Of a stretch of DNA of 34,410 nucleotides, positions 1,675 to 32,100 are shown piece after piece. The DNA comes from a virus, in IMG/VR virus record IMGVR_UViG_3300025133_000360, positions 1 through 34,410 of that record; one strand, 5' to 3'. The translations under genes were made by a program, and so were the position numbers. The notes beneath the pieces are model-generated. The model worked only from the letters and a program-made list of their open reading frames with translations, was not told the DNA's origin and did not search any database. Position 1 is the stretch's first letter, and each line of letters begins with the position of its first letter.

Positions 1675-1708
1675 GTTTGTAAATCTCCTGTAGTTTGTTT
1701 ATAATTTA

Positions 1709-2539
1709 TTATCCTAATAGCTCTCTAGGAACACCATCAGTGTTTCCAGTTTCTATATTGTGTTGCATTCTTCTTAATTCTGAATAAGAAAGTTCTGCAA
1801 GTTGTCCGGCTGTGTCAGCAGTTGCTGCAGCTTTTTGTATAGGTGTAGAATCATCTACTCCTAAGCTGTTTACTACTTTTGGAGCCTGTAACCCAGTCTC
1901 TTCCCTGAATCCCATTTTTCTGAGTCTTGCTTCAGATTCAGTTTGAACTGCTTTAGAAATATTAGTTTCTGTTGCTTCTAATTGTTTCTTTAGAGTCTCT
2001 AACTGTTTCTTCATTGATTTCATCTCGTCAGAATCGTCTTCGTCATCCATACCCTTCTCTTCTACAGGTTCGTCAGCTGCGTCTTCGTCATCATCGTCCT
2101 TGTACATACCCTTCTCTTCTTTGTCATCATCATCATGACCTTTTTCCATCTCTTCGTCATCATCGTCTGCTTTTTTCATAGCTTGGATGGTGTTTTGCTG
2201 TTCCTCTATTTTAGAGTCAATACCAGCATCGCTTTCGGAATCGTCAGCGTTTTGTGGAGTACCGCCTGTTGGGGCTGCTTTTTTCTCATCTCCAGAAGCA
2301 TCTGAGCCAGCATAGCTGTCTCCTTCTGAAGCTTTAAGAACTGCTTGCACCTCTTTAGCGATAGACTTCACTAACTCAGCTTTTGCAAGAGCTTCGGCTT
2401 TCTCTATTTCCTCTTCCTCTTTGCTAGCTTCTTCTTTAGCCAATCGTCCGTCCATTTTTTGTAGGACTTCGGCTACAGCTGCTAGAGCAAGATTAGTGCC
2501 TTCCATCTGCTTTTCAAGCCTTTCGTTTATGTCTGCCAT
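1709..2539 (-). CDS. Scaffold-like acidic coiled-coil protein
   Basis: This 276-residue protein lies directly upstream of the MCP, the usual scaffold position. It starts with MADINERLEKQ after a GGAGG site. Residues 1-70 are charged and helical. Residues about 120-175 are extremely acidic, with repeated DDDD clusters separated by EKGM-type spacers (EKGHDDDD, EKGMYKDDDD, EKGMDDEDD). Residues about 175-210 form a second coiled coil, and the C-terminus is a helix-rich basic/neutral segment that could bind capsid protein. Scaffolds are typically helical, highly charged and divergent, so the role comes from composition and context, not from a recognised domain. A capsid-associated minor protein is the alternative. 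The long leader before it carries its own promoter-like box. Confidence 0.6.
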   Translation of the reverse strand: MADINERLEKQMEGTNLALAAVAEVLQKMDGRLAKEEASKEEEEIEKAEALAKAELVKSIAKEVQAVLKASEGDSYAGSDASGDEKKAAPTGGTPQNADDSESDAGIDSKIEEQQNTIQAMKKADDDDEEMEKGHDDDDKEEKGMYKDDDDEDAADEPVEEKGMDDEDDSDEMKSMKKQLETLKKQLEATETNISKAVQTESEARLRKMGFREETGLQAPKVVNSLGVDDSTPIQKAAATADTAGQLAELSYSELRRMQHNIETGNTDGVPRELLG

Positions 2540-2583
2540 AGTTTAAAACCTCCTATGATTTAAATTTGTTCTTTGCATTTAAC

Positions 2584-2615
2584 AAAAAAGGTTGGTCTTA
2601 GCCATCCGACCCTTT
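2584..2615 (-). other. Imperfect hairpin with U-run in the scaffold-capsid leader
   Basis: In the leader of the scaffold gene the minus strand can fold AAAGG-GTC against GAC-CAA-CCTTT, with a 10-nt loop and a 3-nt bulge, followed by further Ts (six in a row). It looks like a weak intrinsic terminator or attenuator about 45 nt before the ATG. The remaining part of this 171-nt gap holds a small perfect hairpin (CGTTA-AATA-TAACG) and two TATAAT boxes. Confidence 0.4.
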
Positions 2616-2656
2616 AAATTATGGAAAGAAATATAACGTTATATTTAACGCTATTT

Positions 2657-2666
2657 TATTATACTG
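2657..2666 (-). promoter_or_regulatory. Candidate late promoter for scaffold and capsid genes
   Basis: The minus strand has CAGTATAATA, one of five intergenic copies of AGTATAATA, about 120 nt before the scaffold ATG. No TTGACA-like box lies 16-18 nt upstream (the bases there are GTAGGA). A second TATAAT at 2695-2690 lacks the AG prefix. The position suits a promoter giving high expression of scaffold and capsid. Confidence 0.55.
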
Positions 2667-2710
2667 AGGAAATCGAAAAATCCTACTCAATTATAATATG
2701 TTTATGGCAA

Positions 2711-2917
2711 CTATTCGGAATCGGGTAGACCTTTTGAGTCTAATTGAATCATTTCATTACGAAAATCGTATAAAGGAACTTGAACAAGCTTCTTTAATTT
2801 ATCACATTGGTTCCCTTCTGGGAGTGATGCCTCTACTAAATCTAATATCTTCCCCACCATCTTAGAGTGTCTAGAAATAATATACTCTTGGTTTTGGGTT
2901 ACTTTACTTATATCCAT
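2711..2917 (-). CDS. Small protein of unknown function in the head module
   Basis: This 68-residue protein (start MDISKVTQNQEYIIS) is soluble and mostly helical, with a central amphipathic stretch and an acidic end. I recognise no family. It starts 10 nt after the stop of the 185-residue protein upstream, with AGGAGG in front (the minus strand reads AGGAGGAAAAAAATG), so it is translated as part of the head operon. A minor head-completion or capsid-associated role fits the position but has no direct support. Confidence 0.6.
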   Translation of the reverse strand: MDISKVTQNQEYIISRHSKMVGKILDLVEASLPEGNQCDKLKKLVQVPLYDFRNEMIQLDSKGLPDSE

Positions 2918-2927
2918 TTTTTTCCTC

Positions 2928-3485
2928 CTATTCTTTTATTTGAATTGCTTTAGGCAATTGTTTTCTATATTCTTTGGGTAATTTTTTATACACTTTGTCA
3001 TAGGCCTCTTGTACAAAATTCTTTTGTATTCTTAATTGTGCCATCCGTAATCCAAAGTTATTTTTAGGACTAGCCGTATACCAACCCCCTTTTCCTTCTA
3101 CAGGTTTATACCCAAGCTCATAGTGTTTGGTATGAGCTCGTACAGGAACGATGCCTCGTTCTGTTTTTCGAAAATGCTGTTTTGTCTCAGCAGAATAACT
3201 ATATGGTGTTCCTGTATTAGGATTTGCTCCTCGTATTTGAAACACAGATTCTCCTGCGTGTTGTGCCGGAAGCAATATAGGGTCAAAAGTTTCGTTGAAC
3301 CTTATAGTAAGGTCCGTTGGATTGGCCTCTATCTCAACTGCATCAGACAATGGTATAGGAGAATTTGGAAGAATTTTTTCGCATTCTACTATAATTTCTT
3401 TACCAATCTCCTGCAGAACAAACTGTGAAAGAGTCTTGTAAGCTCTCCGCTGTTTGGTAGTCAGTTGTTGTTGTTTCCTAGGCAT
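2928..3485 (-). CDS. Unknown head or neck protein, possibly translated without a Shine-Dalgarno
   Basis: This 185-residue protein (start MPRKQQQLTTKQRR) has a basic N-terminus, a mixed beta centre and a helical, basic C-terminus (KNFVQEAYDKVYKKLPKEYRKQLPKAIQ). It lies between the phosphoesterase and the scaffold-like gene. Size, position and closing helix weakly recall gp10-type neck or tail-completion proteins of HK97-like phages, but no diagnostic motif is present. It has no Shine-Dalgarno: the ATG sits 5 nt after an AGTATAATA box, so a transcript from that box would begin almost at the start codon. No other in-frame ATG lies nearby, which supports this start. Confidence 0.65.
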   Translation of the reverse strand: MPRKQQQLTTKQRRAYKTLSQFVLQEIGKEIIVECEKILPNSPIPLSDAVEIEANPTDLTIRFNETFDPILLPAQHAGESVFQIRGANPNTGTPYSYSAETKQHFRKTERGIVPVRAHTKHYELGYKPVEGKGGWYTASPKNNFGLRMAQLRIQKNFVQEAYDKVYKKLPKEYRKQLPKAIQIKE

Positions 3486-3489
3486 AAAC

Positions 3490-3500
3490 TATTATACTAG
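3490..3500 (-). promoter_or_regulatory. Candidate late promoter directly abutting a start codon
   Basis: The minus strand reads CTAGTATAATA in the 16-nt gap before the gene that starts at 3485. The TATAAT (3496-3491) ends 5 nt before the ATG, so the predicted transcript start falls at about 3484. It shares ten bases with the box before the portal operon at 8198-8188. It has no clear -35 box. Confidence 0.5.
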
Positions 3501-3501
3501 T

Positions 3502-4821
3502 TTATATTGATAAGTCTCCCCATTTTTCAGGAACCTTGTCGAAAAACTTTCGTTTACTGTTGTCGTAACGATTCAAATAAATAATATCTCTACCGATATA
3601 ACCATACTGGGGGTGCCAATATGTAACTAATTGTTTAGGTTTAGTAGCGGCATGAAGTCGCTGTAAGGCAAACTCATCGGGTCCCTTCATTGTGCCACAG
3701 ATATGCAATTCACCTGTTCCTATATCTATTTCATCTATTCTGTGGAAATGTCCTATCATTACACTATCAAACTCTATAGCTGCATCATCATCCATTGAGT
3801 CTTCTATTTCTCTCTGTAATGTTTTTCTGAATTGAAAGACACTTCTTAGTTTAGCAATAGCTCCTGTAATAGCTCCACTACTTCCTGCTCCGGAAATACT
3901 GTCTCCATGCATTATAAGAACTACTTTATCGTGTATCTTGAATGTAGTCATAAAGCTTCTAGGTATATGAAATTCTATATTATCTTGGTTCTTACAAAAC
4001 GTTGCAACCCATTGATATAACATATAATCCCAATCCATGAATTTGTCTTTCATAGGTGGCTTTCTGGTCATTCTTCCATGATTACCAACTACACAAGGAA
4101 CTGTAATCTTTGTAAAATGTGGTGCTAAATACATCAAAGCTTGAGCAATAATACTTGCTCCTCTAATCATTTGCTCCATATTATTCATTTGATTAGACCT
4201 AGCTAACTCATCATGAATATCCCCACTAATCATATCACCTAACATAGGAACCATTAGTTCATCTATCGGAGCAATTTGTCTTCGATAAGCCGTGTGTTTT
4301 AATACTTGGTTAGCCCATCCATACATTCTTTTATTAAATATGTCGAAATTATATTCGTTCAAACCCCGCATTTGCTCTTTATATACTTGTTCCCCAACGT
4401 GAGTATCAGATAGGGGTGAGACTACAATTTGTTTTTGATGTCCAAATGGAGTTTTATCAGAGTTGTTTAAATGTTTTAGAGGTACTGACGGAAAGCCTTT
4501 AGTATATTCTTGAATTGTTTGGACGATAACATCTTGTTTTATATTTTCTTTTAGAAGTCCATTGTAGAGTTTTTTGTAATAATCAGCTTCGCCTTTATAG
4601 GTAGCCAGCTTCTTATCTAGCTTGATACGATTATCTGTGCCTTCCTCGTTTACCAAGAGTTCTTCTTCCGGTTCCCAATGGTTTTTGTCGAACCACTTTT
4701 GAATGGTTGTTCTGTGAACCTGAATGCCATGTTCCTGTTCCAGCCACTCTGCTATCTTCGTCCACGTAGCCCCAATCGCTCTTCTTTTTATTATCTCTGA
4801 TTTTACCTGCTCGGGTATCAT
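3502..4821 (-). CDS. HTH-fused calcineurin-like metallophosphoesterase
   Basis: This 439-residue protein joins two domains. Residues about 1-50 form a helix-turn-helix (IGATWTKIAEWLEQ ... HRTTIQKWF) of the type seen in terminase small subunits and transposase-like proteins. After a charged linker, residues about 130-375 carry all five metallophosphoesterase motifs: D139-x-H141 (SDTHVG), G195-D196, G246-N247-H248, H305 (MHGDS) and G357-H358-F-H360. All metal ligands are present, so it should be an active phosphodiesterase or phosphatase binding two metal ions. The HTH suggests the substrate is DNA or a DNA end. It sits between the portal-side genes and the scaffold. GGAG lies 13 nt before the ATG, rather far. 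An in-frame TAG eight codons upstream fixes the 5' limit. The substrate is unknown. Confidence 0.88.
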   Translation of the reverse strand: MIPEQVKSEIIKRRAIGATWTKIAEWLEQEHGIQVHRTTIQKWFDKNHWEPEEELLVNEEGTDNRIKLDKKLATYKGEADYYKKLYNGLLKENIKQDVIVQTIQEYTKGFPSVPLKHLNNSDKTPFGHQKQIVVSPLSDTHVGEQVYKEQMRGLNEYNFDIFNKRMYGWANQVLKHTAYRRQIAPIDELMVPMLGDMISGDIHDELARSNQMNNMEQMIRGASIIAQALMYLAPHFTKITVPCVVGNHGRMTRKPPMKDKFMDWDYMLYQWVATFCKNQDNIEFHIPRSFMTTFKIHDKVVLIMHGDSISGAGSSGAITGAIAKLRSVFQFRKTLQREIEDSMDDDAAIEFDSVMIGHFHRIDEIDIGTGELHICGTMKGPDEFALQRLHAATKPKQLVTYWHPQYGYIGRDIIYLNRYDNSKRKFFDKVPEKWGDLSI

Positions 4822-22661: not shown

Positions 22662-23133
22662 TACGCCCCTTTTTTGGCTTTGTGGTTTTCTTATTAGCCC
22701 TCTTTCTCGCCTTGTTGCCCGCCTTCGCATTGGCCCACTCCTTTAGTTCTTTAAGTATAATTTTTCTTTGAGCTCTCTGGGTAGCAGATGGAAACCATAC
22801 TGCATCTAAAATTAAGAATCTTTCCCAGAGTTTTTTTATTTTTGAATCTCCCCACCTAGTAACTGAATAATAAATAATTGGATTGTGGGGGGTTATATAA
22901 TACTCAATACCTGCTACAAAATAAGGTACATTTACATTATGGTCATTATTTATAATGCAATTAAGAACTGCTGCAGCTACAGGTGCTGACCCCTGCTCAT
23001 CAATTAGATTTCTAAGTAAATGCATTTCATTACCTATAAATCCTGCTCCAGAATATTCTTTGTTGTGTTTTTCTTTATATAAATTACCAAATAGTTCGTA
23101 AATGTCTCTAGCATTTAATTCATTAAAATTCAT
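22642..23133 (-). CDS. Unknown basic protein, possible helicase loader
   Basis: This 163-residue protein (start MNFNELNARDIYELFG) is helical in its first two thirds. Residues about 125-163 form a very basic tail rich in K, R, G and A (KARKRANKKTTKPKKG) that should bind nucleic acid. It overlaps the sigma-factor stop by 11 nt and precedes the helicase. A helicase loader or replisome organiser often stands here, and the helical core would fit, but no AAA+ or HTH motif is visible, so the role is inferred from position. Confidence 0.65.
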   Translation of the reverse strand: MNFNELNARDIYELFGNLYKEKHNKEYSGAGFIGNEMHLLRNLIDEQGSAPVAAAVLNCIINNDHNVNVPYFVAGIEYYITPHNPIIYYSVTRWGDSKIKKLWERFLILDAVWFPSATQRAQRKIILKELKEWANAKAGNKARKRANKKTTKPKKGRSGGARV

Positions 23134-23665
23134 CAGTCTCTGTTAGTAAATCTGTAAATTTCTCTCGTATAGAGTGACGTACTTTATAAGAAGACTCACC
23201 AAGTTTCTTTGTAATCTCATCCATAGTAAGTCCTTGTAGTTTGTACATTACAAATTCTTTCTCCTTGTCTTGCAGTTTCGGGTCCCCGTTTTCATCATTT
23301 GTATGAATAAGTAGTTCCATATCAATCTCCTCGTATTCTTTCTCTTCTTTAGATAAAACTTTTGAAATTTCTGATGTATAAAATCCTGAATCATTAATGT
23401 CATATGGATTATTGTCAATACTAACAAAATTTGGATGTCTTTGAGCTTTTGTAATAAGAGTACGAATAGTATTTACCAATGAAGTGTGTAGGTATGTGTG
23501 GAATATAGCTCCTTTACTCTCATCATACTTCTTAGCGGCCTTTGTTAAGGCAATACGAAGCTCTTGAGCTATATCTTCTCGGTCCATACCTGCAATATAG
23601 GTATTCCCAACCATTTTCATAATTTTAGGTTCCCACTGTAATATTAAGTCGTTATTAATCTGCAT
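23123..23665 (-). CDS. Phage-encoded sigma-70-like factor
   Basis: This 180-residue protein has a sigma region 2 (about 10-75): REDIAQELRIALTKAAKKYDESKGAIFHTYLHTSLVNTIRTLITKAQR, quoted in pieces, with the -10 recognition helix near HTYLHTSLVNT. Residues about 134-170 are a region 4-like helix-turn-helix (EKEFVMYKL, GLTMDEITKKLGES). No region 1.1 or 3 is present, so it resembles group 4 or T4 gp55-type factors. It would redirect host RNA polymerase to phage promoters, plausibly the repeated AGTATAATA boxes. It lies behind an extended -10 promoter and has no strong Shine-Dalgarno, so it may be tightly controlled. Confidence 0.85.
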   Translation of the reverse strand: MQINNDLILQWEPKIMKMVGNTYIAGMDREDIAQELRIALTKAAKKYDESKGAIFHTYLHTSLVNTIRTLITKAQRHPNFVSIDNNPYDINDSGFYTSEISKVLSKEEKEYEEIDMELLIHTNDENGDPKLQDKEKEFVMYKLQGLTMDEITKKLGESSYKVRHSIREKFTDLLTETDEF

Positions 23666-28613: not shown

Positions 28614-29609
28614 CTAATTAAAAATACTGTAGTTATCTGCTTCTAATGCTCGGTCTTCTTCTAAGGTTAAAGCATTACCTATATTGTAGCCAGTGTATAT
28701 ATCAGCTCCAGTACCACCTTCCAGACTTCTAGCAAAATTTTCTCTACGTACAACGTCTGGCAAGGCTACTACTTTTGTTTTTACTCCGTCATCGTCAATT
28801 ACGTTTTCTAATTTTCGATTTAGTAATCTTAATTCTGCGGCAGCATTGTCTCGAGCAGACGTAATGTTTTCTTGAAGCCCTGCAATAGGATTCGTTGCAT
28901 TTTCACCGAAAACGTGAAAGTCTCCGAAGGGGGTTGGGATTTTCGCAGCTATAATCGTGTCTATAAGCCTATTGATTGGTGATAAGAGGTCATTGAATAA
29001 ACCTAGTCCCCATATTTTTGCCTCTAACCATAATATCCTTGGTTCACTAATAACTTTTTTTATATTATTAACTATCTTGGGTATTGCACCTCCCTCTCCC
29101 GTTAGATACGAAGTTGCAGTTGATACAAGTTCCATAAGGCTTATTATTTGCCCGAGGACTGGGAGGGATTTTAACATATCCATTCCAATTTTTTTAGGGT
29201 CTTGAGTCATGTATCTAGATTGTATTGCTAATATTCTACCTGCTACTTCAAGCATAGGAGTAATAACAGGTATTAAAGGAATCAGCATAATATCTATCAT
29301 TGCACCAATTAATTGAAACAGGGCACCTATTGTACCCGTAAAAATTTGTGATTGTTTCATCATGGCTGACATTTGGAAACTAACACCAGTCATTTTTTTC
29401 GCTGCAGTAGCCCCGTCTTTTGCATACTTCATAGCTTTTTTGGGTCCGTGAATAGTTGCATCTAGTGCTTTTTTTGCCACGCTAGAAGACATCCCTTCAG
29501 CCGCAGCACCATATGCACCCCCAGCGGCACCTTGAGCCCCACGAGCGGCCATAGCAGCACTACTAGTAGCTGCTCTAGCTATTGTTCCTAAAAACGCAAA
29601 AGCTGGCAA
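28614..29609 (-). CDS. Short tape measure protein
   Basis: This 331-residue protein starts at a TTG (reading MPAFAF) with AGGAGG 8 nt upstream; no nearby ATG has a site. It follows the chaperone pair, the standard place of the tape measure. Residues about 1-75 are Ala/Gly-rich helices, about 90-130 are strongly hydrophobic (LFQLIGAMIDIMLIPLIPVI), and the rest is helical. By the usual ~1.5 angstrom per residue rule it would set a tail of roughly 50 nm, short for a siphovirus. Some of it may lie in membrane insertion. The assignment rests on context and composition. Confidence 0.7.
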   Translation of the reverse strand: MPAFAFLGTIARAATSSAAMAARGAQGAAGGAYGAAAEGMSSSVAKKALDATIHGPKKAMKYAKDGATAAKKMTGVSFQMSAMMKQSQIFTGTIGALFQLIGAMIDIMLIPLIPVITPMLEVAGRILAIQSRYMTQDPKKIGMDMLKSLPVLGQIISLMELVSTATSYLTGEGGAIPKIVNNIKKVISEPRILWLEAKIWGLGLFNDLLSPINRLIDTIIAAKIPTPFGDFHVFGENATNPIAGLQENITSARDNAAAELRLLNRKLENVIDDDGVKTKVVALPDVVRRENFARSLEGGTGADIYTGYNIGNALTLEEDRALEADNYSIFN

Positions 29610-29625: not shown

Positions 29626-29871
29626 TTAAAAGTTCATTGCCTTATGCATTGAGGTTGCCTTACTGGCAGCCATTGCTCGGGCTTGTTCATCATTTTCTTT
29701 TTGATTCAGTGCCATTTGTACACCTAAAATTAAATTTATTTCATCACCATTCATACTTTGTATGGCTTCCCAACTAATCCCCATTTTTAATAACTGGATG
29801 GTAATAATCCAGTGGGAGTATATAACAACTTCATAACTTGTTATGTCCTTTGAACCCCGTGTGAAAGCCAT
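29626..29871 (-). CDS. gpT-like tail assembly chaperone extension (made by frameshift)
   Basis: This 81-residue ORF (start MAFTRGSKDITSY) overlaps the stop of the upstream ORF by 1 nt (TAATG) and is in its -1 frame. In lambda-like phages the second chaperone is made mostly as a fusion by a programmed -1 shift. A slippery A_AAA_AAA lies 3 codons before the gpG stop, and a shift there reads R-V and then this ORF, giving a gpG-gpT fusion of about 203 residues. It is helical, with LLKMGISWEAIQSMNGDEI. It would recruit tail tube subunits to the tape measure. Independent translation from the ATG cannot be excluded. Confidence 0.8.
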   Translation of the reverse strand: MAFTRGSKDITSYEVVIYSHWIITIQLLKMGISWEAIQSMNGDEINLILGVQMALNQKENDEQARAMAASKATSMHKAMNF

Positions 29872-30236
29872 TACCCTTTTTTTATTTCTTCAGCCTGCCC
29901 CTCCGCATCAAATGCTTGAGGAACTAAAGCCTCTAAAGCTTTGCCTAATCGCTCATCTATTGTAACTAAAAAAGACTCACTAGTTTTTCCCCAAGGAGCT
30001 TTTACAATCATTTCTTTCAAGCACTCTTTCATGTAATAATCCCCATCAAAAGAGTTGTTACCTCCACCATCAATCTTCAAGCATCTAGAAACTATTTTGT
30101 TTCGTCTGCTCCAAGACAGAGGCTTAACTGTAACATTAAACTCGTCCCCGGTTTCTCCAATAACTATGGTCTGTTCATAGTTACCCCCTGAAATTTGATA
30201 CTTTGTAATATCAAATTCTTTACTTTTCTCTGCCAT
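29871..30236 (-). CDS. gpG-like tail assembly chaperone
   Basis: This 121-residue protein (start MAEKSKEFDITKYQ) lies between the tail tube and tape measure genes. Its N-terminal half is beta-rich (EFNVTVKPLSWSRRNKIVSR) and its C-terminal half helical, ending EEIKKG. It is translated alone or, by -1 frameshift, joined to the next ORF. Length, place and frameshift site match the G protein of lambda-like tail assembly. GGAGG precedes the ATG. Confidence 0.8.
   Translation of the reverse strand: MAEKSKEFDITKYQISGGNYEQTIVIGETGDEFNVTVKPLSWSRRNKIVSRCLKIDGGGNNSFDGDYYMKECLKEMIVKAPWGKTSESFLVTIDERLGKALEALVPQAFDAEGQAEEIKKG
29877..29883 (-). other. Programmed -1 ribosomal frameshift slippery site
   Basis: The minus strand reads ATA AAA AAA GGG TAA ATG-type context, precisely A_AAA_AAA_G in the gpG frame followed by GGG and the stop. 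Slippage by one base converts the frame to AGG GTA ATG, joining the gpT ORF. The seven A residues are the only slippery heptamer at the gene boundary. Confidence 0.85.
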
Positions 30237-30258: not shown

Positions 30259-32100
30259 TTATGGATATACTGGTATGCTATCCACTATTGTTATTCTTAA
30301 ACTTCTAAACACCATATCCAAATCTACTTGAAATGGATTATCACCTGTTATGCTGTGAGGTGCTGAGTTTATAAAAATACCTTGTTTATTTAATTGGTTT
30401 GAAATATCCCCATCAGAAGCATTGGGATTGCCCACTCCGCCATCTGTCTCTGGTGGTATGTCTATTATTATATAATCATTAGTCCCTCTTTCAAATTTTA
30501 AAGTGCCTGTAAAACCTCTTCTGTAAACACTTCCCCCACCAGCACCATAATCACCTTCTAATAGTAATTGTTTAAATAATTCTAATGCACTATCTTGTGA
30601 AGCTGCTGAAACAAGAGCCGTGTTAACTACATCTGCATCTGGTAATACTACACTAGCTGACAAAGAGTATTCTCTAGGTCCTTCTTTTATTTCATAAGGA
30701 CCTCTAGCTCTTTTCCCTTGTTTACCCATATAATATCTTGGTTCTTCACCATTTGAAATAGATAATGAAAAACTTCTTATTCTAGCAAACTCTTGTCCAA
30801 AAAACTTTAATGTTCCTTCAGAAAAATAATATGGAGAAGTTGTTGGGTATCCTGTACCATCGTTAACAGCACCCCCATTATGACTTGGGGCCCCTACATC
30901 ATCTGTATCAATTGTTTGCATTAGTCCAAATCGTGGCATGTTTGCTTCAACACTAGCCCCATCATAATCGTCACCAGAAGCTGTTCCAACTGTTGCTTGA
31001 TTTCTCACATTATGCACCATATTTAAGAAGTTTACACTGTCCCAAGACATAGTAAGCATTCCACCCTCTTCAGCACTTATTGTAGAGGAACCTATCATTC
31101 CCCCCACGTATCTTCTGTCAAAATCTTTACCAGAAGTTTCTGTACTATCTTTCATATGTACATGCCATGAAACAGTATCTAAATCAACAGTTTCGTTTAT
31201 CGTATGTGTATAAACACTTGCACTTGTACATTCTCGCACAGCCGTAGTGGTTGCGTGGTCAAACTGCAGCGGATAATTTAATTTAACTCTACTACTTATA
31301 ATATCTACTATTCTTCTTACTTCCGCTGTAGAATTTGAATCATCACTAGTATACCCAATAACAATATAATCACCATCTGCTAAATTTGTGACAGCATTTA
31401 GAAGAATATAAATGTCACCTTTTTTTACCGCCCCATTAAGAGTAAGTCCTGTACTACCACTTGTAGAACTAGCTATTGGGAAAGAACGAACGCTTCCTAT
31501 TGGAAATCTCAGAGGCCACCCATTAAGTAAGACCATACCAGAAACACCACCGGATAATGTTTGTTGCCCCGGATAAAATACTGAAACATTTCTTTTAGAA
31601 GCAGTACTAAGAAACCTTCTTCCCTCTATACTCATTTCTGGGTCTGGAGTGTCGAATGTTTCATATATTCCGGGAATAAAGGTTATAAATTTATTATTGT
31701 CCCCATGTCTAGTAACATCACCCTCATCGCCTAAGCCGTCTACCTCATGTACTACATCATCATCATCATGAAAAAAGGCTGTAGGTCTGTCTAGTGTAAA
31801 AGTATTAGTAGAGGTACCTCCAGCAGAAGCCATTGCTTCAATACGTCTAACTTCGTGCTCAGTTGTTGTAGAAGCATAGCTGGTCTCAACAGCACCAATT
31901 CTTATAAAATCACCAATTACAAATGTGTTGCTAACTCCATCTACAGATATTGTTCTGCTGCCTGCATTGTGGTCAGCATCTAGTGCCGCTGTAGCTTGTG
32001 ATGAAGAAACAGGACTCCCCTCCATCATTTCAGGGTCTCCACCTTGTGCTGCTTCAGCAGCGAATGTTAATTGTGCTTGGTCGCTTCGATATACTCCCAT
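30259..32100 (-). CDS. Major tail tube protein with beta-module insertions
   Basis: This 613-residue protein lies just upstream of the tail chaperones, the usual position of the tube subunit. The C-terminal half carries the typical tube strands (FARIRSFSLSISNGEEPRYY, IKEGPREYSLSASVVLPD, RRGFTGTLKFERGTNDYIIIDIP). Two beta-modules are inserted, at about 39-121 and 221-290, with the patterns VIGDFIRIG and LADGDYIVIG. Tube subunits are usually 150-350 residues, so this one is large, probably because of added surface domains. It is headed by its own AGTATAATA box, which fits high expression. Confidence 0.8.
   Translation of the reverse strand: MGVYRSDQAQLTFAAEAAQGGDPEMMEGSPVSSSQATAALDADHNAGSRTISVDGVSNTFVIGDFIRIGAVETSYASTTTEHEVRRIEAMASAGGTSTNTFTLDRPTAFFHDDDDVVHEVDGLGDEGDVTRHGDNNKFITFIPGIYETFDTPDPEMSIEGRRFLSTASKRNVSVFYPGQQTLSGGVSGMVLLNGWPLRFPIGSVRSFPIASSTSGSTGLTLNGAVKKGDIYILLNAVTNLADGDYIVIGYTSDDSNSTAEVRRIVDIISSRVKLNYPLQFDHATTTAVRECTSASVYTHTINETVDLDTVSWHVHMKDSTETSGKDFDRRYVGGMIGSSTISAEEGGMLTMSWDSVNFLNMVHNVRNQATVGTASGDDYDGASVEANMPRFGLMQTIDTDDVGAPSHNGGAVNDGTGYPTTSPYYFSEGTLKFFGQEFARIRSFSLSISNGEEPRYYMGKQGKRARGPYEIKEGPREYSLSASVVLPDADVVNTALVSAASQDSALELFKQLLLEGDYGAGGGSVYRRGFTGTLKFERGTNDYIIIDIPPETDGGVGNPNASDGDISNQLNKQGIFINSAPHSITGDNPFQVDLDMVFRSLRITIVDSIPVYP

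Follow-up and report, generated by a model that had tools for sequence, protein, structure and literature searches.

Tail genes around the G-T junction

The window, i.e. the whole stretch of viral DNA that was analysed (34,410 nucleotides, positions 1 to 34,410 of IMG/VR record IMGVR_UViG_3300025133_000360), contains a tail gene cluster on its minus strand. Two short ORFs, denoted G and T, lie between a tail tube gene (PF18906) upstream and an ORF in the tape-measure position downstream, which is also the location of the G/GT genes in lambda-type systems. The features of this region are, in the order in which they are read:

30259..32100, minus strand: tail tube (major tail) protein of 613 amino acids, directly upstream of G (PF18906 Phage_tube_2, 31.8 bits against a cutoff of 27; phrog_290, 1e-13)
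29871..30236, minus strand: G, a tail assembly chaperone ORF of 121 amino acids resembling XkdN/YqbN, with AGGAGG 5 nt upstream of its ATG (assigned from the ORF and from profile and Foldseek matches)
29877..29883, minus strand: slippery heptamer A_AAA_AAA, read in the 0 frame of G and separated from the G stop by one codon
29869..29873, minus strand: TAATG, in which an ATG in the T frame overlaps the G stop
29626..29877, minus strand: T, an open -1 frame extension of 83 codons (RVMAFTRG...), aligned in 30 loci; in relatives, the part ahead of any start codon is under purifying selection
29822..29874, minus strand: candidate 3' hairpin; the window's version is weak (-8.1 kcal/mol, no more stable than in shuffles), and about 15 relatives have a strong one at the same place
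28614..29609, minus strand: ORF of 331 amino acids in the tape-measure position, with a TTG start, a strong Shine-Dalgarno sequence and a hydrophobic stretch around residues 94-118

At its end G reads ...GAA GAA ATA AAA AAA GGG TAATGGCT on the minus strand, and the A at position 29871 is common to the TAA stop and the following ATG. A -1 slip on A_AAA_AAA leads through AGG GTA ATG GCT... into T and would yield a G-T fusion of 203 residues. The heptamer, the ATG with its shared A and a fusion of about 203 residues were already described in the initial annotation, and the minus-strand sequence, with G ending in ATA AAA AAA GGG TAA, agrees with it on each point. The A7 run is special because of its position, since the run itself is not rare in the window: 30 such runs are observed and 31 are expected from shuffles, i.e. 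they are not over-represented. The 42 genes of the window contain 21 in-frame A_AAA_AAR heptamers, and only that of G opens a -1 frame past the 0-frame stop, by 245 nt. An A run arising by chance was rejected as an explanation, as the number of A7 runs is ordinary but the position and conservation of this one are not those of chance. A homopolymer error in sequencing or assembly was rejected as well, the same arrangement being present at 80 further loci on other contigs.

In profile searches 26 of the 30 members of the G family match phrog_25860, a tail assembly chaperone (best 1.2e-6), and 18 of the 30 match the XkdN-like phrog_389 (best 7e-4). The structural model of G has low confidence (pLDDT 61); its top PDB match in Foldseek is YqbN (entry 3klu; probability 0.92, E 0.047, TM 0.46), with the next match at 0.09. 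Searching PDB sequences with the profiles of G and of the tube produced no useful match. G is similar to the XkdN/YqbN tail assembly chaperone of Bacillus subtilis, a PBSX-like tail chaperone, although it differs from it in scoring below the cutoff of PF08890 (14.7 bits against a gathering cutoff of 27) and in the low sequence identity of the fold match. G had been called gpG-like at the outset; its chaperone type is supported by the profiles and by Foldseek, but its closer counterpart is XkdN/YqbN, not lambda gpG.

The 331-residue ORF matches no PHROG or Pfam family and is predicted to be helical with low confidence (pLDDT 46). Its position is that of the annotated tape measures of HHTV-2 and HCTV-5, which have 419 and 480 residues, and in the relatives that were read the length of the tape-measure slot ranges from about 308 to 706 amino acids. 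Because of these haloviral counterparts and this range, a short tape measure is plausible, and it would be no unique case. An example from the literature is the Rhodobacter gene transfer agent, in which five tube discs go with a tape measure described as about 113 + 83 + 20 residues long (PMC7296036). The initial annotation had taken the frameshift to confirm a tube-forming tail with a tape measure of 331 residues. The tube is supported by the separate PF18906 match, but the frameshift itself is no proof of a tube, and the 331-residue ORF is a putative tape measure by its position. One relative, L032, carries at about 1686-3968, in the tape-measure position, two tandem ORFs of 379 and 380 amino acids with similar starts, possibly a duplicated tape measure.

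Slip site, T frame and flanking signals in relatives

Relatives were collected by a tail tube gene search (34 loci) and by a G profile search (80 loci), with some contigs common to both sets. The heptamer was counted in the 80 G-profile loci and the window, together 81 loci, which clustering at 90% identity reduces to 56 lineages. All 81 loci have a slippery heptamer in frame at the homologous place. It is AAAAAAA in 79, one of which has a further A after the run, and in the two others, A_AAA_AAC in L109 and T_TTA_AAA in L113, the X_XXY_YYZ form is kept. The L113 junction, the only one of the 81 with T_TTA_AAA, is a natural heptamer swap; its T is one residue longer and keeps the RVLVFL motif.

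Codon usage at the site is restricted in the same direction. In all lineages with an A run, the codon that precedes the lysines has A as its third base (28 ATA, 16 GTA and 4 GCA, and also TTA, CTA, ACA and AAA). Where this codon specifies isoleucine it is always ATA (28/28), as compared to 42% elsewhere in G, and the lysines of the slip site are all encoded by AAA, for which the frequencies elsewhere in G are 73% AAA and 27% AAG. A joint figure of 10^-36.5 for this bias presumes independent lineages and is therefore overstated, but its direction is plain. Such synonymous constraint at the slip site favours a frameshift.

The T frame is open in -1 and under selection at the protein level, as in lambda-type G/GT. 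In 26 of the 56 lineages none of the first eight -1 frame codons is ATG, GTG or TTG; in several lineages the first start lies beyond half of T, and in L060 and L089 near its end. For the stretch from the slip site to the first start in lineages without an early start, 26 partly overlapping pairs give a pN/pS of 0.23 in the -1 frame, where substitutions are largely silent, as compared to 0.89 and 2.13 in the other frames. T would accordingly be reached mainly or only via the shift in these 26 lineages, and the window itself also carries the ATG.

Segments of 55 bases downstream of the slip site fold more stably than shuffled ones, with a mean z of -1.1 at +12 as compared to about -0.1 to -0.7 elsewhere, the overlapping +5 segment excepted. 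In about 15 lineages, including L099, L087, L076 and L046, a strong stem starts about 8 bases after the heptamer. When the 5' arms were paired with their own 3' arms the mean energy was -6.55, against -4.82 (sd 0.29) with arms swapped from other lineages, a difference reached in 0 of 5000 permutations; the same arm-swap test gave null results in five control region pairs. The register of the stem shifts by a base or two between lineages, and RNAalifold found no consensus RNA structure for the family. These observations are read as a 3' stimulator that has been turned over between lineages and is weak in the window. A Shine-Dalgarno stimulator upstream of the site was also considered, as the window has GGAGG 16 nt ahead of the slip site. 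The share of the family with a strong match there is 39%, against a background of 29%, and this candidate was not supported.

Proposed mechanism and alternative readings

It is very probable, as judged from the sequence comparisons, that a short and a long form of the tail chaperone are made through a -1 ribosomal slip on A_AAA_AAA, as in lambda G/GT. The majority of ribosomes would end G at the TAA. A minority, positioned at ATA AAA AAA, would move back by one base, with renewed pairing of the two lysine tRNAs to AAA, and would read on via AGG GTA ATG GCT to complete the fusion. By analogy with lambda, G would coat the tape measure, and tail tube subunits would be brought in by the T portion of the GT protein; given such lambda-like roles of G and T, the frequency of slipping would fix the ratio of G to GT. 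The slip and the resulting fusion can be strongly inferred, and the G:GT ratio and the binding partners by this analogy only. In published work A_AAA_AAA is far less shifty than A_AAA_AAG in Escherichia coli (PMC5009743), and 10% shifting was measured for a cassette of another gene with A_AAA_AAA (PMC3711429). Besides the lower shiftiness in E. coli, the points against ribosomal slippage are the weak hairpin of the window, the lack of support for the upstream Shine-Dalgarno stimulator, and the ATG that each of the five rows of the window's clade carries.

This ATG could alternatively serve for termination at the G stop and re-initiation at TAATG, with T as a separate protein and the A run as an incidental feature. 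The overlap in the window and the presence of an ATG at the same place in 5 of 5 members of its clade are compatible with re-initiation, but 26 of the 56 lineages lack a start in the first 8 codons and the frame there is still conserved. An ATG within the first codons of T occurs in 21 of the 56 lineages and changes state 14 times on the tree by parsimony (17 with shuffled labels), at least 9 of these changes being forced by well-supported branches, and it differs even between sister pairs (L076/L079, L099/L103, L050/L060 and L085/L104). In addition, the T ATG has the weakest anti-Shine-Dalgarno energy of the 11 window genes checked: an AGGG lies just two bases away, too close to the start, and there is no well-spaced Shine-Dalgarno sequence, while AGGAGG precedes both G and the ORF in the tape-measure position. 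Because the ATG is labile and the heptamer is kept in all 81 loci, the heptamer, and not the overlapping ATG, is the conserved element on this comparison, and re-initiation as the sole route to T is exceedingly improbable. The initial annotation had named a comparison with relatives as a check, in which a variable heptamer and an ATG with its own ribosome site would speak against the shift; the outcome is the reverse. Its central proposal, a -1 frameshift that joins two tail chaperone ORFs, is strongly supported by the heptamer in 81 loci, a T without a usable start in nearly half of the lineages and the similarity of G to XkdN/YqbN.

The same protein product could also result from transcriptional slippage, i.e. 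from an extra A in some transcripts. The homopolymer of seven As, which reaches nine in the L115/L117/L119 clade, would allow this; however, the runs are seven long almost throughout, and known cases are described with more than seven As, transcriptional slippage being mostly linked to longer runs (PMC3711429). L109 and L113 retain a heptamer suited to tandem slippage without any long run, and both the phase of the heptamer and the hairpin swap test fit ribosomal slippage, which makes the transcriptional route very improbable. In the window's clade, finally, the fusion made by frameshifting might be accompanied by some free T started at the ATG that all five rows share. Such an arrangement is unlikely in view of the missing well-spaced Shine-Dalgarno sequence and the lability of the ATG in the rest of the family, and it would be an addition to the ribosomal frameshift rather than a replacement. 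A more specific version, quite unlikely as it stands, has three products in this clade, G, GT and free T, from the slip combined with re-initiation at TAATG, with the strong 3' hairpin used instead in other lineages. If true, the heptamer would stay nearly fixed and exchangeable signals around it would tune the chaperone ratio.

With ribosomal frameshifting as the preferred reading, the lambda-type chaperone frameshift is extended to uncultured marine phages, a family with about 80 relatives, for which there is comparative evidence that T is reached via the shift; annotations in which T is a free gene starting at the ATG are for this reason probably wrong. The frameshift trick itself is well known in phages, and what is new here is its conservation across these uncultured relatives. 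Since the heptamer is nearly fixed while the start codon and the hairpin come and go, the family provides a natural series for asking which signals determine the ratio of G to GT. It is equally suited to asking whether this ratio tracks the length of the tape measure.

Relation to known systems and host

The arrangement shares with lambda G/GT, where the heptamer is G_GGA_AAG, a chaperone ORF that lies between the tube and tape-measure genes, the slippery heptamer near the G stop and the extension T in the -1 frame. It differs from lambda in the heptamer, A_AAA_AAA, in the XkdN/YqbN-like nature of G, in a T without a PHROG match, and in that the ORFs almost abut, a single sense codon following the slip site. 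Among long-tailed phages, conservation of lambda-type G/GT frameshifting is broad, and reports of -1 sites extend to HVTV-1 and to HCTV-1, -2 and -5 (PMC5009743).

The best isolate matches are haloarchaeal viruses, HCTV-5, HVTV-1 and HHTV-2 for the tube and HHTV-2 for G, at about 25-28% identity. Tube, chaperone and tape measure follow in the same gene order as in these haloarchaeal tailed viruses, of which HCTV-5 has an annotated joined chaperone with G_GGA_AAG (PMC5009743). In HHTV-2 (L121, at about 2560-2580) gene 48 occupies the -1 frame relative to gene 47, and this frame stays open across the junction (GAG GAA AAC TGA). Gene 48 is annotated separately, with a GTG start, and the junction has no canonical heptamer; it is perhaps an unannotated frameshift.

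The haloviruses have archaeal hosts, whereas the window encodes sigma-70 region 2, RecA, family A polymerase (PolA), DnaB and DnaG-type domains, and these genes point to a bacterial host. The ORF with the Sigma-70 region 2 (23123-23665; PF04542, 1.9e-10) is a probable phage sigma factor. With haloarchaeal nearest isolates for tube and G and bacterial-looking replication genes, the tail module appears to be common to host domains. A host search of genome contigs with the tube profile found nothing. With the G profile it found one contig of 9290 bases (L120), binned as a Maricaulis MAG, which is possibly a hint to the host or else a mis-binned phage contig. The G relative on L120 has no adjacent ATG in the -1 frame, is 52% identical and carries the same A7 slip site.
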